From: Erpobdella octoculata
Lineage: Eukaryota; Annelida; Clitellata; Hirudinida; Erpobdellidae
DNA length: 64,000 nt
Assembly (NCBI GenBank): GCA_963978895.1
Contig: OZ022246.1
Location: forward strand, 25,632,859-25,696,858
Reading direction: 5' to 3'
A program made the translations under genes and the position numbers. The notes under the pieces are model-generated. The model saw only the letters and a list, made by a program, of their open reading frames with translations. It was not told the DNA's origin and ran no database searches. The number at the start of each line of letters is the position of its first letter. Position 1 is the stretch's first letter. Shown piece after piece: positions 1,737 through 48,596 of the stretch.

Positions 1737-3172
1737 TCAAGTTTTGCCAATTTTCTCGTAAAGATGCAAATCATTTTCAACGCTTCCCAAGACGTTGTAG
1801 AGTTGGTTTGGAGTCGGATTTAAATTTTCATAAATCTCTAGTTTGAAGCTGTTATTTGAATCATTAATTGATTTTGGATCGTTTTCACGTGTCTCTTTGT
1901 GGTTTTCAATTCCAACATTAGAGTTTCTCAACGTTGTTTTCTTTTTGAAAGCAAGAACAATTCCTGATGGCGTTTCTTGTTTAAAATAAAAAATTAGATA
2001 GAGAAATATTAAAAAAAAATTAAACTGTAATTTACTTTTTTTTATTCTGAGCCAGCAAAACGCAACAATTCCAATTATGAGCAAAAACAATAGAGACAGT
2101 CCAACTGCAAGCCCAACTTTACTCCCTGGTGTAAAAAAAATACCAGTTACAATTTTGTATATGTTTTCAAACGTATTCTGTATGTTGTTTATAAATTAAT
2201 TATGCTTATGACTGAAGATATAAATAGCATTGATGACCTGAATATTCAGATGTCGATGTTGAGTTTGTAACGCCAGAAAAGCTAAGTGACTTTGTTCCTG
2301 ATACTGTAGAAGAAGAATCTAACAAAAACTTTGTGTGTTATATACTTAGTAACATTTTTATTTCTGAAAGTGTTTGTCTAGCCAAAAATATTACGTTTTT
2401 TAAATTTAGTGTCAAAAACAGTTCTTTAATTAGGAAAAAAATCTGTATTTACAAAAACATTAATTTGAATGTATATACAAAATAATGTTGATAATGGCAA
2501 TATTCAATACCAATACCAACAACTTTTTGATAAACTTTACTAGGCAAAGTTTCTTTAAGAGTTGTTGACGTTTAACTTTTTTATAAATATAATTTATTAG
2601 GTACATTTGCTTGTACAATGAATTAAAACATATAAAGTTCTTTTTAAAAAAAATTGATACCTTCATTACTGAGCTTTGACGAAAAACTTGAAAATGAGTT
2701 AGAGTGTATTATAAATGTATTGGTTGTTGTTGTTTTAGATGGAGTTGTACATATAAGTGTAGTTGTAGTTGTATTTGTAAGTATATTATCAGTTGTAGTT
2801 TTAGTTGTAGTTGTAGTTGTAGTTGTAGTTGTAGTTGTAGTTGTAGTTGTAGTTGTAGTTGTAGTTGTAGTTGTAGTTGTAGTTGTAGTTGTAGTTGTAG
2901 TTGTAGTCGTAGTTGTAGTTGTAGTTGTAGATGAAACTGTGTCTAAAACTGTAAAAGAAACAAACAAAATAAAAATTAAATTTTCTACAGTTGAAAAAAA
3001 AAACAAAAATAAATGAAATAAGTGTTCACCAAGTTTTAATATATTTAGAAACTTTAAAATAGTTGTATTTATTTATAAAAACCTGACATCAGTAAACACA
3101 AACAACAAATTGTAATCAAAATGTAACAGAAAAAATAGGTATAACCTGAACTTGTTAAAGTAGCTTCTGCTG
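1737..3172 (-). CDS. ITAM-bearing stalk/TM/tail cassette behind receptor B
   Basis: Four or five exons with no CTLD of their own. Stalk exons at about 3172-3145, 2950-2678 (a long poly-Thr run encoded by an ACAACT repeat) and about 2313-2235 (Ser/Thr-rich) precede a membrane exon (2125-2036: GLAVGLSLLFLLIIGIVAF, then basic KKSK). The tail exon (1975-1737) ends in TGA. The tail carries YENLNPTPNQLYNVL, which is YxxL-x7-YxxL and matches the ITAM consensus, followed nine residues later by YEKI. The nearest lectin head upstream is B, whose own ITIM tail ends at 5033. The cassette is therefore either an alternative 3' end of B or a gene that lost its head. The tail is homologous to the one behind receptor J. 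Confidence 0.6.
2803..2930. repeat. Coding hexanucleotide repeat (poly-Thr stalk)
   Basis: About 21 copies of AGTTGT/GTAGTT on the plus strand, read on the minus strand as ACA/ACT, giving uninterrupted Thr-Thr. One copy is changed (AGTCGT). The unit is a multiple of three, so length changes keep the frame and would lengthen or shorten the mucin-like stalk. Confidence 0.9.
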
Positions 3173-4330
3173 CTAAAATTTAAAATTTTATTGAAGTTAT
3201 GAGCTGTCAATTTTCAAAAATAAAATGTTTGTTTTTAAAACAACTGGAACAAAACAATAAGCACATTTATAATAACAAAGTAATGGCAATTATATTTTTA
3301 AAATTTTAATTTGTGATTATGCACTAGAAAATTGCGAGAATTATTTGTTTTTCTAACAACACAGTAACCTACTTTTTCAAAATTGTTTGAAAATATTTAA
3401 AGTAAACGTATAAGTACAATGTTGTAAAATATTGAAAACTACAGAGAAAAAATACTTGAGTTTTCAGCAAACATTGCCATTGTTAGTAGTTGACCAGCTA
3501 TTATCCAACAATCTTAAAACAAATTTCAAAAACTATTCGTTACTTCTCATATAATTTTAAAATATAAAAAATCCTGTAAGCAAAAGGTTCACTTGACTAG
3601 CGTTTGATTATTTGGACAAACCTTTGTTGAAAATAAAGCATTAATTTAAAATCACTTAAAATATAAAAGCTCACAATTTATTTTTAAATCCATGCTGAAA
3701 CGTTTCTTCCACAAACCTACAGCAAAAAAACAGTGCTGTCAATTAATAGAAAAGTTAAATTATAATTGCTATGCGTTAGCTTGTATATCTTTTTAAGACG
3801 CTAACCATGAATTACGTGTAAACTATTGTTTGATATTTATTGGATTCGTGGGAAAAATCAAATGATATTGTAGAGCTCAAAGAGTTTGAATGTTTTTTTT
3901 TATAAAAATAATAAAATCAAATACAAATAAAAGTTTGTTTTATTACGCATTGAATAGTTATGAAAATACTGCATCTTTTAAACAAAAAAAATCAATTAAA
4001 ATATTTTTAATAAAGAGGTTTATAATCTTTTACACTGAGTGTTTTAAATATGAAATAGATGTATAAAAATACAAAATTACTCTATGTTTCAGATAATGAT
4101 CTGTTGATTCTATTTTTCCTCCTTTAGATGAAATGATGTGTAGTTGATTACTCACTATGCCAACACTCTTGTTAAATGAACAACAAAACTTTTTTTACAG
4201 ATTGTGTTTATTTACGTTTAGTAAAATGATGTGTAAAAATCAAACATATCATTATACAAATATTTATATCAAGTTAAAACTGATTTGATATATAAGAGCT
4301 TCGACGTTTCCGATGATTTTAATAACGTTT

Positions 4331-4400
4331 ATTGTGACAAGATTGATTAGCATACGTTGATTTAATTGTGACAAGATTGATTAGCATACGTTGATTTAAT
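4331..4400. repeat. Two perfect tandem copies of a 35-bp unit
   Basis: Positions 4331-4365 and 4366-4400 are identical (unit begins ATTGTGACAAGATTG). This is a simple recent duplication in non-coding DNA. Confidence 0.95.
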
Positions 4401-4637
4401 TGAGATTTCAAACTAAGGTGAGTTAGATATAATGGTATTACACTTTATATCAACAAAAAACAAATGGCACATTGATTTTCAACACTGACACACTTTCTTT
4501 AATTAAAATTTTAAATATCGAATGAAAACAATTGTTCATAGTTTGATACAATGAAATTTATAGTCTACAATTACTGTTATTTTCAGTTTAAACGTCTAAA
4601 AACATTTATATTGACATAAATAGATATAGTTTCTTAA

Positions 4638-5032: not shown

Positions 5033-7674
5033 CTATTTATTTCTTTCAGGCTCTGAGAAGTTAAATTCGGCGTATTGAAGTCCATCTGCAGAGTTTGGAG
5101 AGGTCGGTGTTGAACCATTTCCAATATCTGTTGAAGGTTTGGCTCGAATACTGACGTAGTGAAGATTGCTGGTATCTTCAAAATTGTTTGTTTTAGCGGG
5201 ATTTGCTTCAACCTTAGCGTACATTGTATATCTCTCTTCATTTTTCATTACTTGATCATTTTGTGTTGAAAGTTTAAAATGATTGGTAAGAAACCTGAAT
5301 AACATTTTCCTTATTTTAGAGGTTGATTGATTTATAAAAATAAAATTCACAAAATATTGAATCATTTTTACTTAAGAAAAATTGTTATTAATAAATTTAA
5401 CCTTCTCTTTCTCAAAATAAGATACGTAATAATTCCACCACCAAAAAGAAACAGTAATCCAAATGTGAGACCAACTCCTAAGCCAACGGCCAAGTTATCT
5501 GAAACAAAAGCCAAATTTTAAATACTATTTCGATGTTTCAATTTTAATTGGCCTGATTATTACTTACAGAAAAAAATATATCAATATTTAAGCAGCAAAT
5601 TATATTTTTTAATTATCGTTTAAAAAAGATAAATATATTTATGCTAATTGTTTACTTTTTTGATTCTCTGAGAGCTCGTCTTGGTTCGTTTCATTTTTTT
5701 CCATTGTTGCAGTTGGTGCAGTAGGAATTGCCGCTGCTGTTAAGTAAGTTTTTAAACTATTTGATATTAACAACTTGTTGTTGACGTTCAATTTTTATAT
5801 TTACAACTTTTACTATAATTTAAGTTTTTCGTAGAATTAGATTCGTAATTTATTTTTGATTTTCGGTTTTTGCTTTTCTATTTATTTTTACATTCAAAAT
5901 CTGCTAAATAAATTGAAGAAACATATAGTAAAAAGTCAAATATATAAAAATAAAATTGCACTTGTAATTTTGTCTGTGGCTGTTGTTGCCATGGAAGATG
6001 TTGGTAAAGTTGTTATTGTAGAGGTTATACCTTTTGTTGTAGAGGTTACACCTTTTGTTGTAGAGGTTATACCTTTTTTTGTAGTTGTCGTTGGCGTTGG
6101 TTGTGTAGTTGTAGTTGTTGGCTCTAAAGCAAAAGTTAGTTTTAATTTGAAATTCTAAGCTTTTAGTTTTCTGAAATTATTGATGTTTGTGTCTTTTTAT
6201 CGCGCTTCTATTAGTTTCACTTGATGTTTGTTTGTTGGCGAGAAAAACTTGCAGTCGATTTTTCGACGACTTCCCATTAATTTTTTAAATTTTTATTTTG
6301 CAAGATTAACGTTGTTTCTAAGAACAATACACGAATAAAAATAGGTCATGTTGAAAAAAGGCAAGAATTCTCCAAAACAATGTTTTTATGGAAGAATAAA
6401 CTTAGAGGAAATTTTAAGAAATATCTGGAAAAAGTACCTACTTACCCAGCTATTTCTATAAATGCGTGGTTTATAAAAAAAAGTATTTTGTTTTTGGTTT
6501 TATTTAAATTGTAATTGTAACAATTCAAACGTTTAAGAAACGAATTAAACATTACAACCTTTAATAACAAATATAACAAATAGTACAAGCCTTGGCTTGA
6601 AAAAAAGTGTACACATTTTAATTATAGTTTTATCTAATGAGAATTACTAGAAATCAAACTTGTTGTTGTCGTTGTAGTGGTTATTATAGTTGTTGTAGCT
6701 GTTGTCGTCGTTGCCGTCGTTGTTGTTTTTATTGTTGTTGTTGTTGTTGTTGTTGTTGTTAGTTTCATAGTTGATGGTGGGTCTGCTGGTGGACCTGGTA
6801 GTGCTTCTTCGCCTGGTAATTGATTATATACAAAATTACCTACGATTGAGTTGTTTAAACAGTCTTTTTAAAATTTGTTTAACTTATTTATATAATTTAG
6901 ATAAAAATTGAAACAGCAAAATTTAAGTAACATTTTCAAAATTTATATTTTTTAAAATTCGAGAAAGCATCTTACTTGTAGCTTTTGATGTTGGTGTTGA
7001 TAATTTTGAAGGATTAACTATAAAATAAAAATATCATAAACATAATCATTCAAGAAAGTGCTAAATTGTCTTCAATAACCGTATGATTGAAACATACATT
7101 GTAAACATATAAATGGGTGGTTTTCGTTACAGTCATTTGAAGGGTTCCATCCAGTATTAGTAAAAAATGAACATTGATTATTGGAAGAAGAATGTCCAAC
7201 AACCCATTTGAAGTAATTTGCTAATTCACCTGATTTGTTTTTCAGGTTGAAAATAATTTTTCGAAAACTCAAAAACTCAAAATTTTTATTTTACAAACCT
7301 GATGTCAACCAATAAAAGCTCTTATTTATATATCCTAAATTCAACCACAAGTTAGCTTCCTCAAAATCTTCCCACTGAGCAAATGCTGCTTCAACGACAT
7401 TTTGATATGATTGGTTGTAAATTTCTAATAATATAGAATTATTTTGTCGACAATATATTTGAGCATCAGAGAAGTTTTTCATAGGAGACCATCCGTTGAA
7501 ATACAAGCAAATACTGAGATTGTCGTCACAGTAGTCGAGAGCAGTTAAAACATTCACCGTTATCATTAGAAATATCCATTGATCTGAAATAATTTAAATT
7601 TAATATAAAATCACGATACAAAACAATATTTGTTTAATTATGATTTTCAACTTACAAATCTGTTTTGCTGACAT
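5033..7674 (-). CDS. CTLD receptor B with ITIM-type tail
   Basis: Membrane C-type lectin-like receptor. Exon 1 (7674-7656) encodes MSAKQI; exon 2 (7583-7299) adds a hydrophobic signal (FLMITVNVL) and the first CTLD half (DYCDDNLSICLY, LLEIYNQSYQNVVEAAF, WLNLG). Exon 3 (7229-7098) has the second half (NYFKW, QCSFFT, HPFICL). Stalk exons follow at about 7020-6977, 6815-6660 (Thr-rich, GPPADPP), 6120-5975 (repeated GITSTTKGVTSTTKG) and 5740-5660. The membrane exon (5498-5402) has GLGVGLTFGLLFLFGGGIITY then RKRR. The tail exon (5294-5033) carries LHYVSI, a strict ITIM (LxYxxI), LQYAEFNF near the C-terminus, and TMYAKV. Internal introns are phase 1; the TM-tail join is phase 2. An ITAM cassette lies downstream at 1737-3172. 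Ligand unknown. Confidence 0.72.
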
Positions 7675-8362: not shown

Positions 8363-8898
8363 TTAAATAGAAGAAGCATTGTTAGAAAATTTCAAGTATT
8401 GATGAGATGGGTCTTCCCCAGCTCTTATTGTTTCGTAGGCTTGGTTTTGATGGGATATTTCTTCGTAATTTCCACAAATGTAAATGTCATTCCCTTGATT
8501 ATTTGTACTATTTGCAACATTTCCTTCAATGATGTTTGATATTTTCACAGTTTTAAAGGTTGTTGATCTGTATTCTGCAAATCTTTGAATAAAAAATGAT
8601 CTATTTGGAGTTATTCAATATTTTTAAATAATTAAACTAGTTGTGAATTTTGTTAAAATTAGTGTCAACTAATATTTCTCACTTTTTACAATGTTGAGAA
8701 ATAAGAACAAGTAGTACAATGAAAAATAACAAAGCAAATATTCCCATGCCAACCGCCAAACCAACGTTGACTGAAATTAAAAATTCAATTATATATATTT
8801 ACGCAATAAAAAACTAAAAAAAAAAGTCAAAAATGTTTTTAATAACTTGGGTTTTCAGTTTTCAATGTCATTCCTGTGTCTGCATTGGTTGATTGATC
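8363..8898 (-). CDS. ITAM-bearing TM/tail cassette behind receptor C
   Basis: A small stalk exon (from 8898, DQSTNADTG), a membrane exon (about 8771-8688: VGLAVGMGIFALLFFIVLLV, then SQHCKK) and a tail exon (8582-8363). The tail holds YEEISHQNQAYETI, i.e. YxxI-x6-YxxI, a full ITAM, plus a later QYLKF and an earlier DIYI. The acceptor at CAAAG|ATTTGC keeps frame with the membrane exon; the nearby TTTGCAG would not. No CTLD exon lies between this cassette and the ITIM tail of receptor C (stop at 9391). It is best read as an alternative 3' end of receptor C, or a headless gene. Confidence 0.62.
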
Positions 8899-9390: not shown

Positions 9391-11889
9391 TCAGGTTGAA
9401 AACTTCCTCGGCTGAGGCACAGGCGCTTTGTTAAGTGGGATAAAAGTTTGGGCTATCACAGGATTGTTCATGTTTGAAGAACCAGCAGCCACGTTGTTTT
9501 GATTATCTTTAAATGCAAGTTGAGCGTAGTTGAGCATACCATCTCCATAGTTTGATGGTGAACCATTTGTTGTATAATTGTTGTTATTATTTTCAACCGG
9601 TTTCATATCGGGATCAGCATACATTGTTATTCTATCTGGTCTTCTCATGATTGGACTGTTTTGCTGTGGCAGTTGGAAATGATTGAACAGCGACCTTCAA
9701 CAATAAACATTTTTTTATCAATTTAAAGTCATTAAGTAATTATGTCTTATTTTGGGGAAACAGTAATGTAATTATATAAAAAAATAATAATGAATAAAAT
9801 CTGTGAAATCTTACCTTTTCTTTATAACTTGAAAATGCACAAAAACTCCACCAACAATCAAGAGTAGTAATAAAAGAGTAAGACCAACTCCTAAACCGAT
9901 GGCCAAGTTGCTAGAGTCTGGTGAAATTTATATCTACATTAATTATACTTTTGAATTGTCGATTTTTAAATAAGTCATTACTAAGCAGTCTAAAAATGCT
10001 ATGCTGTGATAACAAATTGGAATGATACTGATTATTTATCATTTACATCAAGTTATAAAAATATTTCAAATAGATGTAGATAAATGTTTCATTTAAGTAG
10101 CTTATTTGCACAGATTTTCAATTATTTTTGTTGTTAAATTGAAAAGCTGTTGTTTTGATTTCTTTTTGGTTTTTACCTTTCGAAATTCCTGTTAAGTCAT
10201 TTTGTTTTGTTTCATTTTGATTATCAGTAGCTGTAAGAGCTGCATGTTGAAATAATGTTTTAAATTAAACATTCAATAAACACGGTAGTAACCTATACAA
10301 TTAATACCCACCAACAACACATTTGTTTTAAACAATTTTTCCAATATAAATAAATATCATTCATCACATACAATTAACCATTATTTCTTTATACATTTAT
10401 CTTACAACTCAGACCACAACTTGTACTTTATTTAAAATTGTTATTTTGTCAACATTTGTATTGTTGTAAACAAAGGCTACTTTAGGCTACCACAGTGCTG
10501 AGAATGAGCTTTTAAAAACTTTATTTACTTTTTGAATTTGTTGAAGTTGATGAGTACAAACTCAGAGTAGTTGTACTTGTCGTTTTAAGACTTGTTGCTG
10601 CAATGAAAATGAAAAACATTAAATTTTTTAATAATTATAAATTAGGAACAGGGGCATGTTTTGCGTACGTTTTATAAATAAAGTAAATGTTCACTTGTCG
10701 TAGTTGGTTTTGTTGTTGTAGTAGTCGTCGTTGTTGTTGTTGTTTTAGCAGTAGTAGTCGTTATTGTTGTGGTTGTTGGGGCATTTGGTTGAACTGTAGT
10801 TGTTGTAGACGTTGAATTCACTAACAAAATCAATTAAAAAATTTTTTTTTATAAATAAATTCAGTTTTAATGATAAATTTTAGTATTTATAATTGTTTTT
10901 CAATAGCTTTCCACTTTTACAATATTTGAATTATTGTTTAGTTGTTAGACTCTATATTTCAATATTATTGCATTTTGTTTGGTAAAAATTAATTTATTTA
11001 ATCTGATTTTATCGTATTAAAACTTGCAGAGTCTAAATTAAAACTTTGAATAAATAACAGTTGTTGTTAATCAAATAATTATAGATTTACTTGCAGCAGT
11101 TGATGGATATGCTATAGCTTCAAAATAAAAAAACAATAAATAAGCAGTTTTTAATGTTCAATTGTTATTTTAGATTTTACAAATTTTTTGGAAAAATATA
11201 ACTCTAGTTTTGATTTCAATTAATTTATAGTAAACATTGAACATCAGTCATCAATTACTTTACTGGATAGATATTTTAATAATAGTAAAACACACTTTTT
11301 AAACAAATGAATGGCTGGGTCAGTGTGCACGAACTGGCTGATCTCCACACAGAATTAGTAATGAAAGAACATGAGCTATTGAATGATGCTGCTAAACTTT
11401 CCCAATTGAAATATTTCGCTATTTTATCTAAAATTAAATTATCTTTTTTTAATTACAATTTTATTAAACCCTGAGCTGAATTTTAATATAAAAACCTGAA
11501 GTTAGCCAATAGAAATTGTCATTTTTATATCCTAAATTCAACCACATGTAAGCTGCATTTAAATCTGTCCACTTAAAAAATGCTGAGTTAACAACATCTT
11601 GATATGATTGATTGTAAATTTCTAATAATATAGAATTGTTTTGTTGACAATATAATTGAGCTTCATTGAAAGTCTTTGAAAGAGAGTATCCTTGAGAATA
11701 CAAGCAAATTCTGAGATTGTTGTCGCAATATTCGAAAGCATCAGAAATAACAAATATAAGGATAAGAAAAACCCAATAATCTGTTGTGTAATTGAATTAA
11801 AATAATATTATTATGAATCAGTTTAGCTTAATCATTAAAGAATCGTTTTAAATTATTTATTTTTACTACTTACTTTGTTTTCCCAGCAT
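9391..11889 (-). CDS. CTLD receptor C with ITIM tail
   Basis: Exon 1 (11889-11874, MLGKQ) joins exon 2 (11780-11496), which completes a signal peptide (VFLILIFVISDAFEYC) and the first CTLD half. Exon 3 (about 11430-11300) has YFNW, SCSFIT and QPFICL. Stalk exons at about 11125-11095, 10820-10690, 10600-10540 and 10240-10180 are Thr-rich. The membrane exon (9917-9815) has LGVGLTLLLLLLIVGGVFV. The tail (9694-9391) starts RSLFNHFQLP, matching receptor B, and carries MLNYAQLAF, a canonical ITIM (LxYxxL), plus TMYADP. The C-terminus PVPQPRKFST is proline-rich. A separate ITAM cassette follows at 8363-8898. The tail suggests SHP-type phosphatase recruitment (inference). Confidence 0.72.
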
Positions 11890-12677
11890 TTTGCAACCAC
11901 AAAACACAAACGAACAACTGAACTATTTTCACACAGCAGACTTTATGAAAAGTTTCTCTAGAGTTTATGTTGATTTAACTGCTTGAATCCAGCTGTATTC
12001 AATAGCTGCTCATTGTTTCACTATTGAAACTTCCTTGTGGAATCTATGTGTTTTCATGGCCTTTTATAGCATTTGCTCAGTTATTTGAATTTTGTTTGAT
12101 GGTATAAAAATTAATAAAACATGTCTGATTTTTAGCTCTACAATGAAAAATCGTAATAAATTTCATTTAAAACAAAATGTAGAAAATAACCCAGTAAAAA
12201 ATATTTTTTATTATGAGCGTTGCTAATTGAATTACGTAAGTTTTTAGAATAAATCTGTTATGTATATATATAATTTTGTATACATTTGGTCAAGGCAAAG
12301 CTCAAGACTACTTTGTTTAAATCCGCAATACATCGTCGTCGATTAAACACGTGAACTTCAAAGAAAGTATGATAAAAAAAACGTTCAGAAACATGTGCCT
12401 TTATAATAAAATAAAAAATATCTATCATCATGTCTAACGAACAGATTTAATTATTTTGTTTTTTGTTTGTTGAGTTCAGCAGCTGAGCATATTTAGAAGT
12501 TAAAAATAAACTAAATTTAAAATAGGATTTACTAAGTTGCTTTATTGTATAACTGTTAATATGAACATCGTTTTTAATTTTTCAGTTGTTATTATGAATC
12601 AATTTAGCAATAACTTCATCAAGAAATGTTTTCTTTTCTTGTCTTTCAATAAGTGGACTTTTTGGCGGCAGGAGTGT
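11890..12677. other. Spacer: likely promoter region of receptor C
   Basis: About 790 bp between the start of receptor C and the stop of receptor D. It is AT-rich and I see no gene, repeat or clear regulatory site in it. Confidence 0.4.
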
Positions 12678-15600
12678 TTAGTTATGTAAATATGTTCTGC
12701 AAAAAGATATTATAAATAATTTAGATTTACAAAATAAGCACAAATTTCATTGTTGAAAAAGTAAATTTATATTAAATTATAAAATAATTACCAACAAAAT
12801 AAATTAACTTATTATGAGTTCTAACTTGTTCTTTTTAACTTGGACACAGGCGATTATTCCACCTCCAACTAGGAGAATAATTACGGTTGAAAGACAAACT
12901 GCTAAGCCGATGGTCAGGCTGCCAGATTCTGGTTGAAATTTTAGATCAACATTAATTATATTTATTCAAAATATCCAGTTTCTTATTGATTTATTAGCAA
13001 AAATTTGAAAAATTAAATTCAATGAAATCAAGTTAAAAACTGTTTAACATTCTATTATCGATGCATTAACATTGATAATTGCACAATAAGTCATATATTT
13101 AAGGACATTACCAAAATAATTCAATTTTAAATTTTTTACGACATAAAAACAACCTGTTTTAAATATTTGTTTTTTTCCTTTAAAATTTCTAGTAAAATCG
13201 TGTTGTATTTGTATATCAATCAAACAAGCGTTGGTGTTACCCCATACCAATCCTATTTTATGCGCCTTTCCAAAACACAATCAGTAACAGGTGTAAATGA
13301 TAATATCAATAAGATAACAACTGGGCTGAAAAGGACAATTTAATTTACCATTTGTGTTTATTGAGAATGATATGTTCGATCCTGGAGTTGATGTAGATGT
13401 AGATTTGAAAATTATTTCTAGCAAAAAAATTAAATTCCTAAATAATAAAATGAACTAATGATGAAAATAGTTTGTTATGCACATGCTTTAAAAAAAAAGT
13501 AAAAGCTCACCTGTTTTCCCTGTATATTTTGTTGTTGGTGAAGCTGTTGTTTTTGTTGTTGAAACTGGATGGTTTTACAAGAATTTTAATAAAATTTCTA
13601 TACTTATAACTATTATTATAATTAAAAGAATGATTTTATTTATTTTAAAACAAAAGTTTATGAAATAAAAATAAAGTAGATTATAATTGTAGACATTTAA
13701 AGTTATTGCACACATAAATATTAAAACTATAGTAAGTATACATTTATAAATGAAATTGGTGAAAAATGTTGAAAAATGAAAAATATTTAGCTAAATAACT
13801 AAAATGAACTCATGGTTAAGAAGATCATAACTCAATCTGCTCAAAAACATGAAACTAAAATTGGCGAAAACCTTTGCTCATCACAAGGGTTTTTAGTTTT
13901 TATCCATGGGAATGAAACCAGGAGTTCACCAGCAGCAGAAATAGAATCCACCTATTTATCAGTGAAAGCCGCAATCTGTGTAGACATTTGAACAAAATTA
14001 TACCCAATTAGGACTTTCTTCTGATTATAAAAACATGCAAACCGAGACAACTGCTAAAAAATATTTGTATATGCTTGCACAATAACTGTGTATGCTTGCA
14101 CAATAACTGTGTATGCTTGCACAATAACTGTGTATGCTTGCACAATAACTGTGTATGCTTGCACAATAACTGTGTATGCTTGCACAATAACTGTGTATGC
14201 TTGCACAATAACTGTGTATGCTTGCACAATAACTGTGTATGCTTGCACAATAACTGTGTATGCTTGCACAATAACTGTGTATGCTTGCACAATAACTGTG
14301 TATGCTTGCACAATAACTGTGTATGCTTGCACAATAACTGTGTATGCTTGCACAATAACTGTGTATGCTTGCACAATAACTGTGTATGCTTGCACAATAA
14401 CTGTGTATGCTTGCACAATAACTGTGTATGCTTGCACAATAACTGTGTATGCTTGCACAATAACTGTGTATGCTTGCACAATAACTGTGTATGCTTGCAC
14501 AATAACTGTGTATGCTTGCACAATAACTGTGTATGCTTGCACAATAACTGTGTATGCTTGCACAATAACTGTGTATGCTTGCACAATAACTGTGTATGCT
14601 TGCACAATAACTGTGTATGCTTGCACAATCTAAAAATTTGTTTAGCATCAAAGTGTTACACACCAATCATCTTGTTGACGTGTAAACTTTCTAAAGTTCA
14701 ATTATAACAAATGTAGATAACTTGATTAAAATCCCAGATAATGGCAGAAGTCTTGATGAGCAGTGATACAGCTTTGTGAAAAGTATTATACTTTATCGGC
14801 TGACTCAGCAAACATTTGAAATTTTTTTCATGGAATCAGATAAACCTGGAACAAGCAGCAGAACAGTACACGGGTGTTCATGTATACATAAATTTACAAC
14901 CTTCAACTCTTAAAACTACGTTCAACTGAATAAAGAAGAATTACTAACTTTTACATAGGGTTTTCTACTTACATGTAAACTACGTTTCAGTATTTAAAAA
15001 ATAACGATGAGTTTTAAACTGCCAAACAATTAAATGAAACTAATTAAATTAGTCACATCATGCCTTCTCAAGAAAACAAGTTACCGTGTCTTACTCCTGG
15101 GTTGAAATAACAAAACCAGATCAACTGGAAGCATTAATATGCCCTCCAAAGAACGAAAAAAAGATCTTCATCAGATAAGTTTCACTGGTACTGGAACAAG
15201 TGGATACATATTATCTGGAGTTTGTTGCACAAGAAAGTGAGTTCATCACCATTAACTCCCCAATGTCATTTTAATGACTGCAAATTTGTTAAACTGATTA
15301 ATTACATGTGATTATTATGCCATATATTTAATTTAAACTATGGAAGTAATGTTTTGTTTTACTCAAATTCACAGCTGTTATTGAACAAATTAAAATTAAA
15401 TTTACTTGCAGTTGTTGAAAAATTCATTTCTGAAAAAATCATAAAGTGGAATTAAAAAAAATAAAACAAAACTAGCAGTCGGTGAAACTTATTAATAGAA
15501 ATAAATCCTTGAATTTAAATGCAAAACAGTTTTCTATCAGTGAATAACTTTGATAAAATTAACATAAAATAATGGAAAGTTAAAGTAATTGTAAATCATA

Positions 15601-16203
15601 CGTTTTAGGCAAATGAAAGTGTGATTAACATCGCACTTATAAGCAGGAATCCACTGTAAATTATAAATGAAAGTGCATTGAATTTGCCCAGTTGGTTTAA
15701 CATCTTTCCAATTAAAATAATTTGCTTTTGTTCCTGTGAAGGTTTAAATTTAAATCAAATTATGATTCTAATAGTTTATAAACTATGAATACTTTTGTTT
15801 AACCTGATGTCAACCAATACAAATCTTGATTTTTACTTCCCAAATTTAACCAGCAGAATGCTGACTGAAAATCTCCCCACGTGGCAAACGCCGATTCAAC
15901 AACATCTTGATATTCCCGGTTGTATATTTCTAATAATATGGAGTTGTTTTGTATGCATGTCGTTTGAGCCTCTTTGAAAGTCTTCACAGGATTGTATCCT
16001 TGAGAGTACAAACAAATGTTGAGATTTTCGTGGCAATAGTCGAGAGAAGTCAAGATATTCAACTTTAGAATTAGAAATAACCACAAATCTGTATATGTGG
16101 TAATAAATTAAAACTTGTTTAATATAAAACAATTTATATTATAATTTGAATATATGTTTTTATTATACAGTTATTACTACTTACAAGTTTGTTTACCAAT
16201 CAT
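12678..16203 (-). CDS. CTLD receptor D with very short tail
   Basis: Exon 1 (16203-16185, MIGKQT) joins exon 2 (16088-15804) with signal segment LWLFLILKLNILTSLDYC and the first CTLD half (YDREYQ-type helix, WLNLGSK). Exon 3 (15733-about 15605) holds NYFNW, QCTFIY, WIPAYKC and HTFICLK. Stalk exons lie at about 15438-15405 (EMNFSTTAS), 13560-13510 and 13420-13350. The membrane exon (about 12934-12828: IGLAVCLSTVIILLVGGGIIA) is followed by KKNK, and the last exon adds only about five residues (TYLHN) before a stop at 12678. No ITIM or ITAM can be formed. One intron, between the first two stalk exons, contains the 21-bp minisatellite. Receptor E is its closest relative by sequence and layout. 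Confidence 0.66.
14071..14629. repeat. 21-bp minisatellite, 27 near-identical copies
   Basis: Tandem unit ATGCTTGCACAATAACTGTGT starts at 14071 and repeats every 21 bp up to a partial last copy ending at 14629. I see no mismatches between copies. As 21 is divisible by three and the unit has few stops, five long open frames cross it on both strands; these are artefacts. It lies in a long intron of receptor D and reads as a recent expansion. Confidence 0.97.
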
Positions 16204-23888: not shown

Positions 23889-24099
23889 TTAAGAAAAAAA
23901 GAAAAAAAAATAAATTATTAGTAATTAAGTTTAAAACACAAATCATACATTTCCTACTCTTTTCTAGTAGCCCATTTACAAAAAAAATTAGCTGGTTAAC
24001 TCGTTTCTTCATGGGCCATAAGAAACGTTCTGTAAATATTCACATAGAATATTTGAGTGGTATTTACATTACTTTCATTTAACATACCGCTGGTACGTT

Positions 24100-25138
<1,039 letters not shown>

Positions 25139-37191: not shown

Positions 37192-40138
37192 TCATAAATA
37201 CAGATGATCTTCATATATAGCTGATCCTAATGTTTCGTATTTATCCATTGATGATATTGTCGGAAAAGGCTGGTTTTGTTGGTCTTGATAAGTGTTTGGT
37301 CTGACTGATGGGCCGCTACTCATACTGTGAAGGGACGGAAGTGGACGTTTTGAAAATTTGCTTTTGGGACGTAAGGTGTCGTTGTCTGTAGTCGTCGTCA
37401 TCACTATTGGAGTTTGTTGCTGGTTCTTTTTATATCTTTTAAAGCAAAACAAACAAAATTTAGTAAACTGAATTAATAGTTGTTAATTGTAAAGAAGATT
37501 TAATGAGCAAATACACATTTTTTTTTAAAATAATTACTGAAATAAAATTCAACAAAATTCAAAATTAAAAATAATTATTTCTTACACTTAAAAAAAATTT
37601 AAACTAAAATAAAAACGTTTCTTACTTCTGGCAATAGAAACAGGCAACGAAGAATAAAATGGAGGAAACTACAAAAAGGATCGATACTGTTACGAGACAT
37701 GCAATCAGCGTTGTCACAAGATCTGTCAGTTTTTTTAAAATAACACCAAATTAAGCAAACCAATGACACATTCTATAATTTTAGTTAACAAACAAAAAAC
37801 TATTTTGCAGAAGCATTTGTTTAATATTATTACACACGAATGTTTTTCAACCAAGTTGGGTTTATCAAAGATATCTTTATATAACAAGATATCCATGGGC
37901 TTATTAAAGCTTCATGCTAAATCAGATGTATTAAATTCAAAGTACACTGTTTCAAACGACTAAGAATAAATTTTATAAATAAAAATATAATGTTGCAATA
38001 ATTTATTACATTTGTTAAACATTTTTAAGCAGTTTTTGCAAGCAAAACTAATTAAATAACATAATTTATTGTTTTACCTTTTGAAACATTAGTTTGTTCT
38101 ATGGTTGTGCCCTTTGTTGTTGTTGCTGAAAATTAGAAAAACAACATCTTTTATTAAGTAAATGAATTATTTTTTTGTATCGAAATATTTATCACTACTA
38201 TTTAATTTTAATACTATTTAATATTGCTAATATTTAATGTTGTGTCAAATGATTGTTTTGATCAAAGTTTCAAGTTTAAAATTTGAAATAATTAAATAGA
38301 AAATAATAAATTTTGCTTTTTCTAAATTTTCGAATTAAACACTTAGAATTTTCACTGCATTTCAATGCAAATATTTTATTGAAATACAAAAAATTACAAA
38401 ACTAGTAAATAAACATTATTTGATCTAGTTTTATTTCGATAAAACAGCAATATTTCCGGTAGTTTAAAGATTTCTAATTTTGGTTTCAACAATTCATTTG
38501 TTTTAAAAGCTGAAACATCAAGTGATTTAAGAAATGTGCATTTTTAAACAAATAAACATGTACAAAGTAATTGTTCTATTTAATTAAAATAAACTGGCAT
38601 GTTTTGATATTAATCATATTTGACTATTAAATAAACTAATTAATCAATATACATTAAATAATTTGTAATCTTTATTTGTTTAAAAAACAAGGAGTTTCGA
38701 AATATTTGAAGTTTAAATATTCAATCAGTCGGCTGTTTAACGTGGCTAAAGAGTGGGTGAATTGTTGGAATTTTGCAAGTCAGTGCAAGAGTTTCTCGTA
38801 TCTAAGTCATTCAATTGAGACGCGCCATCTATAACTTCCTTAGTTTCATTAAAGTTGAAATCAGCATAGTTCAACATTCTACTTTTGTTAGATTGAGTAT
38901 AAATGAATAGTTATCTGAAAGTGAATTAGCTGGAATTCCTGTTTCACTTTAACTGTTGGTTGTTTGTTTGTTTGCATTATTAAGAACATTTCCAGAAAAA
39001 AGTTTTTCTTGATTCTTTTCAATGAAGTAGATGGCAGGATTCATTAACTGTCTGTAATTTTTAGAATTTTATAACTAATATACTTAACTAGTTTGGTTTT
39101 TTTTCTTAAAAAGTTAGTAGTTTAGTTAAATTATGTTCTAACGTAATGATTGATGTTTGTTCTGCTAGAAGTTCAAATTTGTTTCATACACACTCATTCA
39201 CAATTGTTGTTGTTTTGTTAAATCAATAATTCTGTTCTAAAAAACTGTCATACACTTATCTGTTGATGGAACTTTAGGTAGTTGGGTCAGTGTATTACTC
39301 AAATCTGTTGTAAATTTTTATGTAAGCATGTTTATGTTCAGAAGTTGATTACGTAATTCACTATCTAAATGCAGGCTAAATTTAACCAAAGTTGTTATTT
39401 ACTCACTTGTTGATGAGATCCCAGGCAGCTGTGTCGGTGCAGTACTTAAATCTGTTAAGAATTTAAATGAATGCTTTTTCACATTCATAACTTGTTCATG
39501 TAACATAATGAGATAAAAAAAATAGAAATGTACAATACCTTTCAAGCAAATGAAAAGATGACTTGTTCCAACAATGCAGTCCCAAGCAGTTTTCCATTTT
39601 AAATTAACAAGCCATACGCATGGAGCACTTGGATTTAGTGGCTCACCAGAACCCCAATTTTTGTATTCTATTTTCCTATCTAAACGGTTTTTTAAATATT
39701 TGAAATATGCGTTTTGATAATTGAACCAACATTAAAAAAATGTACTAAAAGTTTTAATTACCTGAAGTTAGCCAATAAAAGCCATCGTTTTTATATCCTA
39801 AATTTAGCCACACAGAACTAGACATATTGATCCAGCTTGCTTTTTCAATCGAATCTTGATATGATTTGTTGTAAATTTCTAGCAAAACAGAGTTGTTGTT
39901 TTTACAGTACTCTTGAGCCTCCGATAGAGAGTTTGTCGAAACCATCGGATCATAATACAAACAAAAGTTTAGAGAACTGTCACAGTACTGTTCGGCATGT
40001 AAACTTTCCACCAATAACAACGTTAATATTCTCAAGACACCTGATCAACAAAATATTTAATATTAACTATTCACAATAAATCAATAATTAATGTTTAAAA
40101 AGAAGTTTCTAACGCATCAGTCTTAACCTAAATTTCAT
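37192..40138 (-). CDS. CTLD receptor H with YxTL-type double-tyrosine tail
   Basis: Exon 1 (40138-40114, MKFRLRLM) and exon 2 (40040-39762) form a strong signal peptide (ILTLLLVESLHAEQYC) and the first CTLD half; exon 3 (39679-39539) has YKNW, GEPLNPSAPC and HLFICLK. Thr/Ser/Pro stalk exons lie near 39450-39415 and 38125-38085. The membrane exon (37722-37626) encodes LIACLVTVSILFVVSSILFF then CFYCQK. The tail exon (37435-37192) has a proline/serine region (KRPLPSLHS) and ends with YETLGSAIYEDHLYL. The first tyrosine motif (MDKYETL) resembles the hemITAM of Dectin-1/CLEC-2; the spacing to the second is too short for an ITAM. A broken ITIM tail lies between head and tail (38746-39051). This is the most divergent of the heads; the exon 1 donor was chosen because it keeps the frame. 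Confidence 0.62.
38746..39051 (-). pseudogene. Decayed ITIM tail exon in receptor H
   Basis: Homologous to the intact ITIM exon of receptor I (42052-42313). It keeps MLNYADFNF and the flanking DGASQLNDL block, but from the expected acceptor (39051) the frame runs into a TAA near 38950, before the ITIM. A small length change just upstream of the motif relative to receptor I also breaks the frame. No membrane exon is found between it and the lectin head. Receptor H therefore seems to have lost its inhibitory ending. Confidence 0.72.
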
Positions 40139-41108: not shown

Positions 41109-41635
41109 TTAAATAAAATGTTCTTGATATATAGCCGAGCTTAACGTATCGTATTTATCCATTGATGTAATTGTCTGGAAAAGGAAGTCTTGTTGGTTTT
41201 GGTATGTGTCTGGTTGCACTGGTGGGCTGCTACTCAAACTGTGAATGGAGGGGAGAGGACGTTGATAGAAACTTCGTTGTGTGCGAAACGTGCCGATTCC
41301 GTCTGATTTCATGACCATTGAAGGTTGTTGCTTGTTTTTATATCTTTTGAACACATTTTTAAATTCTAATAGCAGTTTCAAGTCAAAATTCAATAAGCAA
41401 CTAAAAAAACGTTAAAAAAGTAAATAAACTTCAGTTTTATTAATTGATACGATTAAAGAAAATTTAAAATAACCATACAAAACAAATACATACAACCACA
41501 ATTGCAAATTTGTTAACATAAGTAAAAACGTTTCTCACTTATGGCAGAAATAGCAAGAGACGATAAGCGAAACGGAGGATATTGCAAAAAGGACTGAAAC
41601 TGTGGCGAGACAAGCAATCATTGTTGTCAGAAGAT
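41109..41635 (-). CDS. YxTL double-tyrosine TM/tail cassette behind receptor I
   Basis: Membrane exon (41635-41539: MIACLATVSVLFAISSVSLI then CYFCHK) and tail exon (41343-41109). The tail matches that of receptor H along its whole length: KYKNKQQ at the start, RPLPSIHS in the middle, and a C-terminus YDTLSSAIYQEHFI. There is no stalk exon of its own, so to be used it must be spliced to the stalk exons of receptor I, bypassing the ITIM ending at 42052-42540. This is the clearest case in the window for alternative 3' endings on one lectin head. Confidence 0.66.
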
Positions 41636-42051: not shown

Positions 42052-44373
42052 TTAAGGAGCAAATGTCTTGTTAAGAATGTGTTCATCGACTGCAGCCTTT
42101 CCTGCATTTAAGTCATTCGATTGAGAAGGGTCATCTATAGTTCCATTAGTTTTAATAAAGTTGAGATCAGCATAGTTCAACATGCTACTTGTATTAGATT
42201 GAGTGAATGGATTTTCATCTGGAAGTAAATCAGTTGGGGTTTGCACTTCGGAACTATCACTTATTATAGAGTAGGCGGAAATTTGTTCAGGACCTTGCTG
42301 GTTTATTAACATTCTGAAATTAACAGTTAAGTTATTACCACACTAATTGTATAACACACAATGTAGTATGTATATAATATTTATACCTGAGAAATTAAAT
42401 CATAAAATTAAAACGCGATTTTTAAATTTCAAAATCTCACCTTTTCTTTTTAGTTAAAAAGTACCACAAGGCAATTCCACCACCAGTCAATATTAGTATT
42501 AAAAACGTAAGACCAACCCCCAAACCAACTGCATTGTTTCCTGAATTAATTTATACTTAAATGTGTTCAATGAAAAACAAATAACAACAATTAAAACACT
42601 TTTTTGACACTGAACACAACACATTTGAAGTTGTTTTTTCTTTAATTCTATCGTAAAATATACTGAAACTTTGTTTTGATAGGTGGTCAAAGAGTTTAAA
42701 ATAAATTTTTTGACAAACTATTCAAAGTTTGTAATTTAAAAAAAACATACTAGTAAATTACTACAGCGAAAACAGTTTTTTAAAGTTGTAATTTAAAAGC
42801 AGCAGACTACGTGTTTTCAAGGTCTTTTATTTTAACATATCAGTTGTTTTTTGTTTGAAACTACCCATTACAATAGTAAAAAATATTTTTGGTAAATAAA
42901 TTTTGTAAATAAAAATGATACAAAACATTTAAAACACGTTGTTTTAGAAAAAAGTTATTTTAAAAATAAGTATAATTGTAATTACAAAATAACAAGTTTT
43001 ACCTTTGGAAGTTGTATTTTGCTCTTGTGATGTGTTTGCCTTAGCTGATGCTGAAATTAAAAAAAATAGTAATTTATTAAAACGTTATAAGTTGAAAAGA
43101 AGTTTCTTAACGCTCTACTTGTTGTAGATGCTGCAAGTGATGGAGTGTTTAAATCTGAATAAATAAAAATAAAATAACGGTTATTTAATTTTAAAAATTA
43201 GTTCAATAACTTTTTTTGTAAGTTTAGTTTTAATGTTTTATTTAAAAAATAGATAGAACTAAATTAAATTTAATTAAATTAAATTAACTTTAAAATAATT
43301 ATTTTTAAACAAAACAAAACAAATTGAAGTTGAATGCAAACTAGGTAGTTCAAAACTTGTGTACACGGTATTTATTTGAACTCATATGGTTATTTATTAA
43401 ACCACATATTGAGGAGTAAAAACAAGCATAAAATTAATTTTACTTATATTAACAAATGTTGTCGTTGTAGGTAATAGTGCCGTCGTTGTTGATGCTGATC
43501 CTGGTTGTGTTGTTGTTGTTGTTGTCGATATTAATGATGTTTGTGCTGCTGTTGTTAATGTTGATGTTGGTTGTGTTGACAAAGTTGTTGCATTGGTAGT
43601 AGTCAACTGTGCACCTTTTGAGAAAAAACAAAAAACAAACTTATTTTTCCAGTTCTCTACAGAAATTTCAAGAAAAAGTTTTAATCTAAGTTTCAGAGTT
43701 TTATTTCAAATCAAATAATGTGTTCAAATAGCGTTCCTAAAAACAAAAATGACTTTTTAAAAAATATATTACGAATTTTATTCAATCATACTTTTTAGAC
43801 AGACGAATGGATGTTGAAGGTCGCAGCCACTAGCAGGAACCCACTTAGAATTAACAATAAAAGTACATAGAGGAGGGTTTAGAGGTCCTGTGTCTTGCCA
43901 GTTAAAATATTCTGCTTTTGTACCTGTAAATGTGTTCAATATTTATTAAAAAAAGGTTTTAAAAAATATATAGCAAATTTCTTTTAACCTGAAGTTAACC
44001 AGTAAAATTCATTGTTATTATTTCCTAAATTTAACCATCGCCAAGAACCTGTGTTATAATTCAATTGTGCAAATGCCAAATCTACAACGTTTTGAAATGT
44101 TTGGTTGTAAATTTCTAGTAATATGGAGTTGTTTTCTTGACATTTAACTTGAGCGTTTTCAAAAGAAAGTAGAGGAGCATCTTGGAAATAGAGACATATA
44201 TTGAGACTGTTGTCACAATAACTAAAATCACTTGTAACTTTTATTGTTAACCGTAAAATAATCCAAAAATCTGTGATAATAATAAATTTAAACAAATATA
44301 AAACAACAATTACTAAAACATATTGATACAATTTCATTTCTTTAGTGCACTTACATATTTGATTTTTCATCAT
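42052..44373 (-). CDS. CTLD receptor I with ITIM tail
   Basis: Exon 1 (44373-44355, MMKNQI), exon 2 (44270-43989; signal FWIILRLTIKVTSDFSYC and first CTLD half ending WLTSG) and exon 3 (43923-43792; EYFNWQDTG, LCTFIVNSKW, HPFVCLK). Stalk exons at about 43620-43455 (Thr-rich, with TTTQPGSASTTT), 43155-43120 (DLNTPSLAASTTS) and 43053-43005. The membrane exon (42540-42441) has VGLGVGLTFLILILTGGGI then LTKKKR. The tail (42313-42052) carries SAYSII and MLNYADLNF, both fitting the ITIM consensus, the second one perfectly. The phase-2 join AG|A gives R-M. A second, double-tyrosine ending follows at 41109-41635. Confidence 0.72.
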
Positions 44374-45258: not shown

Positions 45259-45541
45259 TTATAAATCCTGGGAGGTGTTTATGATAAAATTGCTAACGAT
45301 GTTGTTTTCATGTTCGTGAAAGTTCAGTTCAACATAGTTGATCACATCATCAGATGTTGAAAACAAACCATTCGATGTATTATTTGGTTTGAATGAATCT
45401 GTTTTAGTGTTGTCATCATGAATGTTGCTGTTCAAGTTGAAGTTGTTGTTGCCGCTCTGATTTTCATCATTGTCAACATTCAATGTCTTCTTGTCCTTTT
45501 TCTAAACATTTTCACTACTTTTTATGACATTTAATAGTGAC
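45259..45541 (-). pseudogene. ITIM tail exon behind receptor J with premature stop
   Basis: Starts at an acceptor TTACAG|G (45541) with RSLLN, matching RSLFN of receptor C, but an in-frame TAG at 45502-45504 comes 12 codons later. The same frame beyond the stop runs on for about 80 codons with VINYVELNF, a perfect ITIM (IxYxxL), and stops at 45259. I find no membrane exon between it and the J tail at 46194. Unless a different acceptor is used, the ITIM cannot be translated. Confidence 0.68.
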
Positions 45542-46193: not shown

Positions 46194-48596
46194 TCAAACC
46201 AATACCGTTTTGTATTTGCAATTTTTAACAATCTTTTGGTATTGATTTTCTTGTTTATCAGTTTCTTCCAAAACGTTGTAGAGCTGCATTTCGTTTTCAG
46301 TTCCATTTAGGCCAACGTTTTCATATGTTACTCTTTCGCGAACATCAGTTGAAGGAGTTGCTTGATTGGTTGGTTTTCTTTTGAAGCAGCAGCAGCAGCA
46401 GCCTGTCAGACAATTTCTTAATTTTTCTCTTTAAATTACAATTACAATATATTAGTTTAATAGAGTGGTATGTTTTACAATAAAAAATGCAATAAACATT
46501 GAATAAATTTTGTTTTTTTTTAATTGTTCGAGTTGTTCAAGTTGTTTACTTTATTAATGATTAATCTGAATTATTGTATATTATTGTTTAATTAATGAGA
46601 ATAAAAATTTTTACCTAGTGCTCTGTTTGCAAAAACATGATATCAACATTCCAAGACCTATTGAAAACAGCATAAGAAAAGTAACGCCAACACCATGAGC
46701 AATTCTTGTATATTTGTTTTCATCTTTCTCTAATTCTCAATAAAAATAGTAAACACTTAATAACATAAACTAAAAGCTTGTTTTATAACAATGTATGTGC
46801 TTTTAAAACAGCAATTGTAAGCAAACCTAATGTAACAAAACTAAAACATGTTTAAATTATTCTTTTTTGATGAAATTAACATTTTAATATCGTTTCATAC
46901 CTTTTGAATTTTCAGTAAAATTATTCGGTTTAGTGATGTCTTTTTTATCCATTGAATTAGACGTTCTAGTTGTTGGTATCGCTGTCAAATTAAAATTAGC
47001 AACTAAGAAGGATGCTTGTTAATAATTTTTAAAAATATTAATGTAGTGAAGTTTTTTCAACTATAAGTTGCTGGTGACGCCGGTGAAGCTCGAACTGTTG
47101 ACTTATTGATCGACTGGCAAACGCTTTACCGCTCTGCCACCAACGCCACTTAATCTATATAGTTACGTTTTCTTTTCCAGTTGAAAGTGACATTGTAGTA
47201 GTTGTTTCTACTCCCTAATTAAAATTTATCTTTCAATGAGCAACTAAGTATAGAAATACAAGTTTGTATAACGGTTAGCTAAATCAGAGCAGACAAAACA
47301 AAAAATTTTTACTCAAAAATTTTTAAATAACATTCGTCGATCAAGTTGTGTGTTATTTGTGAACTTGTGCGTTTTTAAAAATTAAACTTTACTTGTAGTT
47401 GCTGTTGTTGGCTTGTTCGTTGTTGTTGTTGTTGTTGTCGTCGTCGTCGTCGTTGTGGGTTTTGTTGCTATTGTTAGTTGTTGTAAAAAACGTGTTGGAA
47501 TAAACGTTGTTGTTGTAGATGTTAGAGCTTCAGGTGTCGTTTCAAAATACGATGGCGAAGAAGCTAAAAAATCAAGCTTACAAATAATTTCTATAGATAC
47601 TAATGGGCATGCTGAAAAATTATTAATGTTGTAAAGCAATTAAAAAAAATGTCACTAATTTCCTTATTATAACAAAATTTAATTTTTTCGGCAATAAATA
47701 AAACTAGAAAAACAGCAATACACTTGTTTTATAGTATGATTAAATTTTAATTGTTGCGTTTATTCCATTAAATTATTAAAACCTATTTAATTTAAATAAA
47801 ATTTATTTAATAATATTTCTAATGTTAAACGTTTAAGAGAAAGTTTAAAGTATTTTAATTTGTCTATTTTTATCTTCACTTATATCTTAAAATTTAATAA
47901 CCATTCTTTGTATAAAGACAGCTGACCATGCATTAACACGTGTTCATACTGATCATACTTGAACAGTAGTTTTCAAAACATACTTTTCATGCAAACAAAC
48001 TGATGAGTTTTGTTGCAGTCATCAGAAAGAATCCACTTGAAGTTAGAAATATAGTAGCAATCATTATTTTCAATTTGCTTAGGCTGTCCACTATCCCAAT
48101 TAAGATAATTGGCTTCTGTACCTGAAATAATCTTAGTTGTAGCTTATAGCTTAATTTATTAATTTTCAACAAATTTGTTTTTCAAATAACCTGAAACCAG
48201 CCAATAAAAATTAATGTTTAAATATCCTAAGTTGAGCCAACAATTAGATGAATTGAAATCTATCCACTGAGTTAAAGCTGCTTCAACAACATTTCGGTAC
48301 GTCTGGTTGTAAATTTCTAATAATATGCTGTTGTTTTGGTTACAGTAAACTTGTGCTTCATTGAAAGACTTTAAAAAATTGTTTCCTTGAGAATACAAAC
48401 AAATGTCAAAATCACAGTACTGAAGAGCAGTTGCTAATTTCATCAAAAACAAACTAAAAACTGAAAGTAAAAAAAAAACATTTTTTTGTTAATTATATAA
48501 AGTTTAAGTTGATAAAGATAAACTATTTTCTGTTAAATAGATAAAATCCCAAAAAATAAAAATTGTTTGTTACTTACAAATTTGTTTTGAAATCAT
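46194..48596 (-). CDS. CTLD receptor J with ITAM-like tail
   Basis: Exon 1 (48596-48578, MISKQI), exon 2 (48460-48191; signal SLFLMKLATALQYC and first CTLD half) and exon 3 (48121-47984; NYLNWDSGQP, DCYYISNFKW, HQFVCMK). Stalk exons at about 47562-47395 (Thr-rich) and 46982-46900. The membrane exon (46729-46615) encodes VGVTFLMLFSIGLGMLI then CFCKQ. The tail exon (46416-46194) begins with six consecutive Cys, possible palmitoylation sites. It then carries YENVGLNGTENEMQLYNVL (YxxV-x11-YxxL) and, nine residues later, YQKI. The order YEN-YNVL-YxKI matches the tail at 1737-1975, so the two are related; here the first spacing is longer than in a classical ITAM. The acceptor AATTAAG|AAATTG was chosen because it alone keeps the frame. 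Confidence 0.68.
47071..47150 (-). repeat. tRNA-like sequence (pseudo-tRNA or SINE head)
   Basis: On the minus strand an A-box-like TGGCAGAGCGGTAAAG and a B-box-like AGTTCGAGC are about 40 bases apart, as in Leu/Ser-type tRNAs. The acceptor and anticodon stems do not pair well and the B box has a mismatch. It lies in a stalk intron of receptor J. Confidence 0.5.

Follow-up and report, generated by a model that had tools for sequence, protein, structure and literature searches.

A tandem array of C-type lectin-like receptor genes in the annelid Erpobdella octoculata, three of them putatively double-tailed

A stretch of 64,000 nucleotides from the annelid Erpobdella octoculata (GCA_963978895.1, contig OZ022246.1, positions 25,632,859 to 25,696,858), hereafter the window, carries on its minus strand eleven C-type lectin-like domain (CTLD) heads, named A to K from left to right. 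We consider it rather probable, judging from exons and splice phases, that they belong to a tandem array of type I receptor genes in which B, C and I are double-tailed, the tail being picked by alternative 3' splicing: one head would be joined either to a tail with an immunoreceptor tyrosine-based inhibitory motif (ITIM) or to a tail of the lineage that carries the activation motif (ITAM). The origin of paired stop and go receptors that share a ligand is an open question; in this array, inhibitory and activating tails appear to lie behind one head in one gene, while the neighbouring genes kept one or neither. If this is true, splicing would set the sign of an immune-type signal and contact could calm or alarm the cell; moreover, the order of events in the evolution of paired receptors would become testable, and CTLD receptors would join immunoglobulin (Ig) receptors as independent users of ITIM and ITAM outside vertebrates.

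The heads form one family. A tblastn comparison with the window recovered eleven head loci, all minus-strand and with E no higher than 1e-30, and the remaining matches, five plus and one minus with E from 0.053 to 0.93, resemble chance hits; an all-versus-all comparison of stop-to-stop frames gave a 12-member family round one exon type and an 11-member family round a second, again all on the minus strand. All eleven heads exceed the curated cut-off of PF00059 (Lectin_C; 22.6 bits), with scores of 36.2 to 44.7 bits for B, C, D, G, H, I and J and of 25.5 to 40.4 bits for A, E, F and K; it is the only Pfam family above cut-off in the heads, which have no Ig match. An earlier note on this DNA, written from the letters only, had described CTLD heads lying head-to-tail on one strand, and the domain search and the strand of all eleven loci agree with it. 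The note had, however, counted ten heads within 1737-48596 and K as an eleventh further right; the total of eleven including K is correct, but that range, whose ends match gene limits (48596 is the ATG of J and 1737 the end of the ITAM tail of B), contains nine heads, B to J. Head A (651-109) lies to its left, with stalk and tail beyond the window edge, and K lies to its right, with a truncated second CTLD exon and the last cysteine gone.

A W-L-N-L-G core is present in 11/11 heads, and the last cysteine is missing in K alone; the alignment displays six cysteines, a pattern which we take to be that of the long-form CTLD. None of the eleven heads has EPN, QPD or WND (A has EPS), as the note had said of motifs for Ca2+ and sugar binding, and the ligand would probably be a protein or a non-classical glycan. 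A tree of the heads gave support for one of eight inner branches, D+E. GC content is mostly 25 to 33% per 4-kb block and about 28% overall, and an invertebrate origin fits this low GC and the style of the genes.

Genes B to J share a common plan, composed of a micro-exon leader, a CTLD on two exons, small Ser/Thr-rich stalk exons and then the ending. Splice sites were chosen with a simple home-made consensus score and required phase agreement, giving twelve models, two for each of B, C and I and one for each of the others, from which some optional stalk exons, e.g. 6812-6660 in B, were omitted. The first CTLD exon measures 285 nt in B, C, D, E, F and G, 282 in I, 279 in H and 270 in J; the second measures 132 nt in B, C, D, E, G and I, 138 in F and J, and 141 in H. 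Both run from phase 1 to phase 1 throughout, and the CTLD is on two exons in 9/9 models. The claim of a nearly identical exon plan holds, the 285- and 132-nt CTLD exons being the commonest. A leader exon of 16-19 nt (ATG, phase-1 donor), in most genes with an M..KQ-like peptide, precedes nine of the ten heads tested (not H; A was excluded), the background being 24 with a leader at that distance among 1150 acceptors, which were taken from both strands and not purged of the real ones. Because of this, each head seems to have its own start, and starts equal heads in number, not tails. The frame is open from start to stop in 12/12 spliced models, that of H being without leader, and all 55 introns counted are GT-AG, partly by construction since sites were chosen so. 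In the models with a transmembrane (TM) segment the order is N-terminal leader and hydrophobic stretch, CTLD, stalk, TM and tail, which is type I, and no stalk cysteine occurs in the twelve models, some optional stalk exons being left aside.

Four kinds of ending fit in phase behind these heads, as the note had proposed: ITIM tails (B, C, I), multi-tyrosine tails of the ITAM lineage (B, C, H, I, J), tyrosine-free tails (D, E) and hydrophobic ends resembling those of glycosylphosphatidylinositol (GPI)-anchored proteins (F, G). The ITIM pattern [ILVS]xYxx[LIV] is present in the cytoplasmic tails of B, C and I as a sequence motif, the binding of phosphatases being putative. Within the multi-tyrosine class, the strict ITAM (YxxL/I-x6-8-YxxL/I) is found in the second tails of B and C (B2, C2), J is ITAM-like, and H and the second cassette of I carry YETL/YDTL-type tails. 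For E, an alternative donor at 17668 would yield a different tail with one tyrosine. The GPI-like C-termini of F and G are hydrophobic and end in LKAHFVLLLIPL(F/I)FGRFAV, in which an Arg lies close to the terminus. A Ly6/three-finger domain in F and G, suggested by frames with QCYLC and CNSTESSFC, was rejected because the Ly6-like frame is out of phase; read in phase 1, the last exon gives the hydrophobic GPI-like end. Five consecutive cysteines, placed as in palmitoylated proteins directly on the inner side of the membrane, open the tail of J (46428-46350, minus).

In B, C and I one leader and one head are followed by two complete TM+tail cassettes in series, one ITIM and one of the ITAM lineage, both entered in phase 1 and accepting the same stalk. 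The TM exons run from phase 1 to 2 in B1, C1, D, E, I1, C2, I2, H2 and J and from 1 to 1 in B2; in B, therefore, the ITIM tail is the only one in phase with TM1 and the ITAM tail the only one in phase with TM2, and in C and I either TM would join either tail in phase. From the stop of the first tail to TM2 there are 2907 nt in B, 620 in C and 416 in I. No head lies between the two cassettes, and the open frame upstream of TM2 has no in-frame ATG in any of the three genes; from this and the leader scan given below we infer that the second cassettes are spliced to the upstream head. The tails that the note had listed behind B, C and I as further endings do exist, but the sequence points to second cassettes of the same genes. 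This arrangement of exons supports the double-tailed anatomy well for C and I and makes it plausible for B. With the same binding specificity, the ITIM product would inhibit through SHP-type SH2 phosphatases and the ITAM product would activate through a Syk-type kinase.

Several results weigh against the reading of one head with two alternative tails. In the gaps before the second cassettes, leaders were scanned for as an ATG followed by a phase-1 donor, with exons down to 10 nt and weak donors allowed. No leader-like stretch was found in the gaps of C and I under these settings, and the gap of B has one with a good donor and four with weak donors. At the window average about 0.7 (C) and 0.45 (I) good leaders are expected by chance, so that their absence from C and I is mild support. 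The second cassettes could be separate genes, for ITAM adaptors or headless receptors lying between the head genes; this would suit the distance at which the second cassette of B lies, the Thr-rich frame and the ATG/donor stretches in between. We regard it as unlikely, in view of the lack of an in-frame ATG ahead of all three TM2 exons and of a leader candidate in C and I. In addition, an adaptor of the DAP12 type is expected to use a charged TM residue, and the TM cores have no acidic or basic residue.

A second group of adverse results concerns the motifs. Open frames contain 47 ITIM hexamers in 16,573 aa on the minus strand versus 65 in 13,509 aa on the plus strand, and matches to the ITAM pattern in open frames are mostly simple repeats; motif density is not above background and counts by themselves prove nothing. 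When the tails were shuffled, a single ITIM was not significant in B1 (P=0.075) or C1 (P=0.094), and the strict ITAM is absent from H2 and I2 and, at the standard spacing, from J. The motif density and the shuffles of B1 and C1 speak for tyrosine motifs arising by chance in Tyr/Leu-rich frames, in which case the genes would encode adhesion or feeding lectins and not signalling receptors. We judge this quite improbable, as the motif sets of other tails are rare in shuffles (P=0.0002 for two wide-spaced ITAM pairs and 0.005 for a strict ITAM in B2; 0.011 for a strict ITAM in C2; 0.003 for two ITIMs in I1), and the blocks LNYA(D/Q/E) and YENx...LYNVL...Y(E/Q)KI recur in otherwise diverged tails. 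In J, one wide pair has P=0.006.

The weight of the case lies in position, in phase and in the conservation seen between copies. The tails fall into an ITIM lineage (B1-C1, E 8e-8; C1-I1, 7e-14; plus a relic in H) and an ITAM lineage (B2-J, E 3e-5; H2-I2, E 1.4e-42, 53% identity), and TM1 and TM2 of B are themselves related (50% over 30 aa, E 7e-5). The block [LI]xY[AV]x[LF]xF, written from the ITIM tails themselves, occurs six times over the six frames: its five minus-strand copies all fall in ITIM tails or remnants, and the sixth is on the plus strand.

The second cassettes might also be dead leftovers of duplication, each gene truly making one tail. Clear relics do lie nearby: H retains an ITIM exon without TM1 (53.7% identity over 41 aa with the ITIM tail of I, E 5.7e-9), and a frame without acceptor lies behind J, whose resemblance to the ITIM tail of C is weak (37.5% over 32 aa, E 0.20). 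The codon signal is weak too, and hardly tells tails or TM exons apart from non-coding frames. Among 100 null frames, one of which is a real exon of K, as high a score was reached by 9 for B1, 3 for C1, 1 for I1, 8 for B2, 5 for C2, 8 for J, 24 for H2 and 25 for I2, and by 15 to 59 for TM exons. We nevertheless hold such decay to be improbable, because B2, C2 and I2 retain full frames, in-phase splice sites and paired tyrosine motifs. Moreover, the ratio of nonsynonymous to synonymous divergence (omega) between H and I is 0.31 for the second tails (bootstrap 0.15-0.61) and 0.30 for TM2 and tail together (0.16-0.50); B2 and C2 have no such close pair. Poly(A) signals were uninformative, AATAAA or ATTAAA lying within 500 nt of 12/12 tail stops at a window average of 2.5 per 500 nt.

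One further point counts on the adverse side. Neither the 321-aa model of B nor an 89-aa first-exon query found a homologue in the collection searched, which seems to be without relatives.

If the double-tailed reading is right, the two-tail state would be old in the family, because next to the ITAM-lineage tail of H, and probably next to that of J, there are remains of an ITIM tail that was lost. Short tails alone would then have survived in D and E, and a GPI-like end in F and G, the products of which could act as decoy, ligand or co-receptor. We tentatively propose, as a possibility, that single invertebrate genes have a built-in sign switch and that a double-tailed ancestor split into single-ended descendants, either activating-only (H, J), short-tailed (D, E) or GPI-like (F, G). 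Paired receptors would thus arise via splitting, rather than via duplication followed by gain of the opposite tail.

The nearest solved structures belong to the mannose receptor family. A profile of the eleven heads matched 18 sequences of the PDB at E 0.01 or better, led by PLA2R (8e-19) and the mannose receptor MRC1 (2e-8), with E-values that sum several weak domain matches (best single 21.7 bits); KLRF1 was seventh. The mannose receptor family shares the type I order with the array but has many CTLDs per protein.

The note had seen in the array a mirror of the vertebrate natural killer (NK) gene complex. Receptors of that complex (group V CTLD receptors) are type II with a C-terminal CTLD made from three exons (PMC3819593, PMC3322459), their clustered CTLDs are without Ca2+-dependent sugar binding and inhibitory and activating members are paired (PMC3819593). 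As an analogy the comparison stands: both are CTLD clusters without Ca2+ motifs, with inhibitory and activating-type members, to which the array adds tyrosine-free and GPI-like ones. In topology, exon number and stalk cysteines, which serve for dimers in the NK complex, it fails, and in the NK complex each gene has one tail. The role in telling self from non-self or in recognising microbes, which the note had put forward as inference, is a candidate one for the array. True orthology with NK complex receptors, to which the missing Ca2+ motifs and the ITIM and ITAM members of one cluster could be attributed, is extremely improbable given the type I order, the two-exon CTLD, the stalk without cysteine and the likeness to PLA2R and mannose receptor CTLDs.

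Closest in logic are the FcoR receptors of Botryllus schlosseri, described in PMC12065747 as clustered receptors with ITIM or hemi-ITAM (hemITAM), two loci of which swap both by splicing. The likeness lies in an invertebrate cluster with an ITIM or an activating tail, in the array putatively from one gene; the differences are Ig and sushi ectodomains instead of CTLD, a hemITAM instead of the two-tyrosine ITAM of B and C, and a swap seen in transcripts, here read from exons and phases. The splice swap of ITIM and hemITAM is already reported for Ig receptors of Botryllus, and the array is its putative CTLD version. The ectodomains of the Hydractinia alr products belong to the Ig superfamily, whereas the array heads have no Ig match. 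These candidate allorecognition genes form an invertebrate (cnidarian) cluster with both ITAM and ITIM motifs, as cited in PMC12065747. Among titles and abstract openings of open-licence literature, a weak sample with subscription papers and preprints outside it, no cnidarian CTLD receptors with both ITIM and ITAM tails were found.

In oyster, CgCLec-TM1 and CgCLec-HTM combine CTLD, TM and a hemITAM or non-classical ITAM tail that binds Syk, and so resemble the array as invertebrate CTLD receptors with activating-type tails; the available part of PMC13027682 describes neither a mixed ITIM/ITAM array nor a double-tailed gene. An oyster Ig receptor carries an ITAM (PMC11999971), and Syk-like kinases or relatives are known, in part from PMC10253181, in invertebrates including Hydra.

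Of the 45 pairs among ten heads (K left out), 44 show more variation in the second CTLD exon, which carries much of the ligand face of the CTLD, than in the first; mean identity is 0.395 versus 0.586. Between D and E, nonsynonymous divergence (dN) is about twofold higher in the second exon (0.27 vs 0.14), at a synonymous divergence (dS) of 0.55 in both. Between F and G the second CTLD exon is less alike (96/126) than the flanks, both over six non-coding rows (1670/1907, P 0.0009) and over all eleven flank rows (2491/2913, P 0.007); since dS is raised too (0.30), gene conversion fits equally, and these heads may be relaxed, converted or diversifying. Positive selection on the heads was considered; the F/G head omega of 1.16 (bootstrap 0.61-2.49) is indistinguishable from neutral. 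The first CTLD exon of K is constrained relative to that of B (omega 0.26).

Table 1. Coordinates of the array features within the window (all on the minus strand)
Feature	Position	Parts	Evidence or remark
Head A	109..651		PF00059 36.5 bits; rest of gene outside window
Gene B, leader and CTLD	7098..7674	leader 7674-7656 (MSAKQI); CTLD 7583-7299, 7229-7098	PF00059 36.2 bits
Gene B, Ser/Thr stalk	6031..7017	7017-6976, optional 6812-6660, 6123-6031; phase 1-1	splice/phase scan
Gene B, cassette 1	5033..5498	TM1 5498-5402 (phase 1 to 2); ITIM tail 5309-5033	LHYVSI, LQYAEF, MYAKV
Gene B, cassette 2	1737..2125	TM2 2125-2036 (phase 1 to 1); ITAM tail 1975-1737	ITAM YENL-x7-YNVL, plus YEKI
Gene C, leader and CTLD	11296..11889	leader 11889-11874 (MLGKQ); CTLD 11780-11496, 11427-11296	PF00059 44.1 bits
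Gene C, stalk	10177..11117	11117-11091, 10597-10529, 10239-10177	
Gene C, cassette 1	9391..9917	TM1 9917-9815; ITIM tail 9694-9391	LNYAQL, MYADP
Gene C, cassette 2	8363..8770	TM2 8770-8683; canonical ITAM tail 8582-8363	YEEI-x6-YETI
Gene D	12582..16203	leader 16203-16185; CTLD 16088-15804, 15733-15602; stalk 15429-15406, 13564-13511, 13417-13349; TM 12928-12826; tyrosine-free tail 12657-12582	PF00059 39.1 bits
Gene E	17463..19703	leader 19703-19685; CTLD 19592-19308, 19237-19106; stalk 18859-18836, 18136-18086, 17980-17912; TM 17756-17654; tyrosine-free tail 17520-17463	PF00059 40.4 bits
Gene F	26016..29882	leader 29882-29864; CTLD 29791-29507, 29421-29284; stalk 27940-27866, 27742-27665; GPI-like end 26089-26016	PF00059 26 bits
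Gene G	32230..34993	leader 34993-34975; CTLD 34894-34610, 34538-34407; stalk 34144-34115, 33987-33913; GPI-like end 32303-32230	PF00059 40.8 bits
Gene H	37192..40040	CTLD 40040-39762, 39679-39539; stalk 39451-39407, 38125-38078; TM2-type 37722-37626; YETL tail 37435-37192	PF00059 37.9 bits; leader looked for, none found
ITIM-tail relic within gene H	38746..38910		LNYADFNF; no TM1 found with relic
Gene I, leader and CTLD	43792..44373	leader 44373-44355; CTLD 44270-43989, 43923-43792	PF00059 39.3 bits
Gene I, stalk exon	43003..43050		Thr-rich exon near 43614 perhaps used too
Gene I, cassette 1	42052..42540	TM1 42540-42441; ITIM tail 42313-42052	SAYSII, LNYADL
Gene I, cassette 2	41109..41635	TM2 41635-41539; ITAM-lineage tail 41400-41109	YDTL
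Gene J	46194..48596	leader 48596-48578; CTLD 48460-48191, 48121-47984; stalk 46981-46901; TM 46735-46615; ITAM-like tail 46428-46194	PF00059 44.7 bits
Possible ITIM-tail relic behind J	45259..45501		INYVELNF; no good phase-2 acceptor
Head K	55806..56398	leader 56398-56380; truncated second CTLD exon	PF00059 25.5 bits

To the right of the array lie two tandem receptor genes (49642-55211 and 57686-64000, minus strand), composed of an unassigned N-terminal domain, a Thr-rich part, EGF repeats and a TM, with IPT/TIG called in the right-hand copy only; their tails, of roughly 150-240 aa, carry several YxxV/L motifs. They are candidate partners or co-receptors of the CTLD array. Head K is directly 5' of the second of these genes and is phase-compatible with it if the end of the second CTLD exon is skipped; K may represent either a fused or a broken head.

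Between E and F there are protein-kinase exons (20338-22500, minus), of which 21809-21528 matches PF00069 at 8e-14 and 20622-20338 is below the Pfam cut-off; by eye the kinase looks AGC/PKA-like. A frame at 846-1121 (minus) looks by eye like the end of a non-long terminal repeat (non-LTR) retrotransposon open reading frame and has no Pfam match, and an Rfam scan of the window gave no matches. A 21-bp minisatellite of about 27 units (14008-14707), open in several frames on both strands, occupies an intron of gene D, and two near-identical copies of a roughly 470-bp direct repeat (24022-24960) adjoin a TA microsatellite (~24950-25215). Finally, gene F contains a GC-richer stretch with long open frames (28134-28546, minus), missing from G in the F/G alignment, which is possibly an inserted element.

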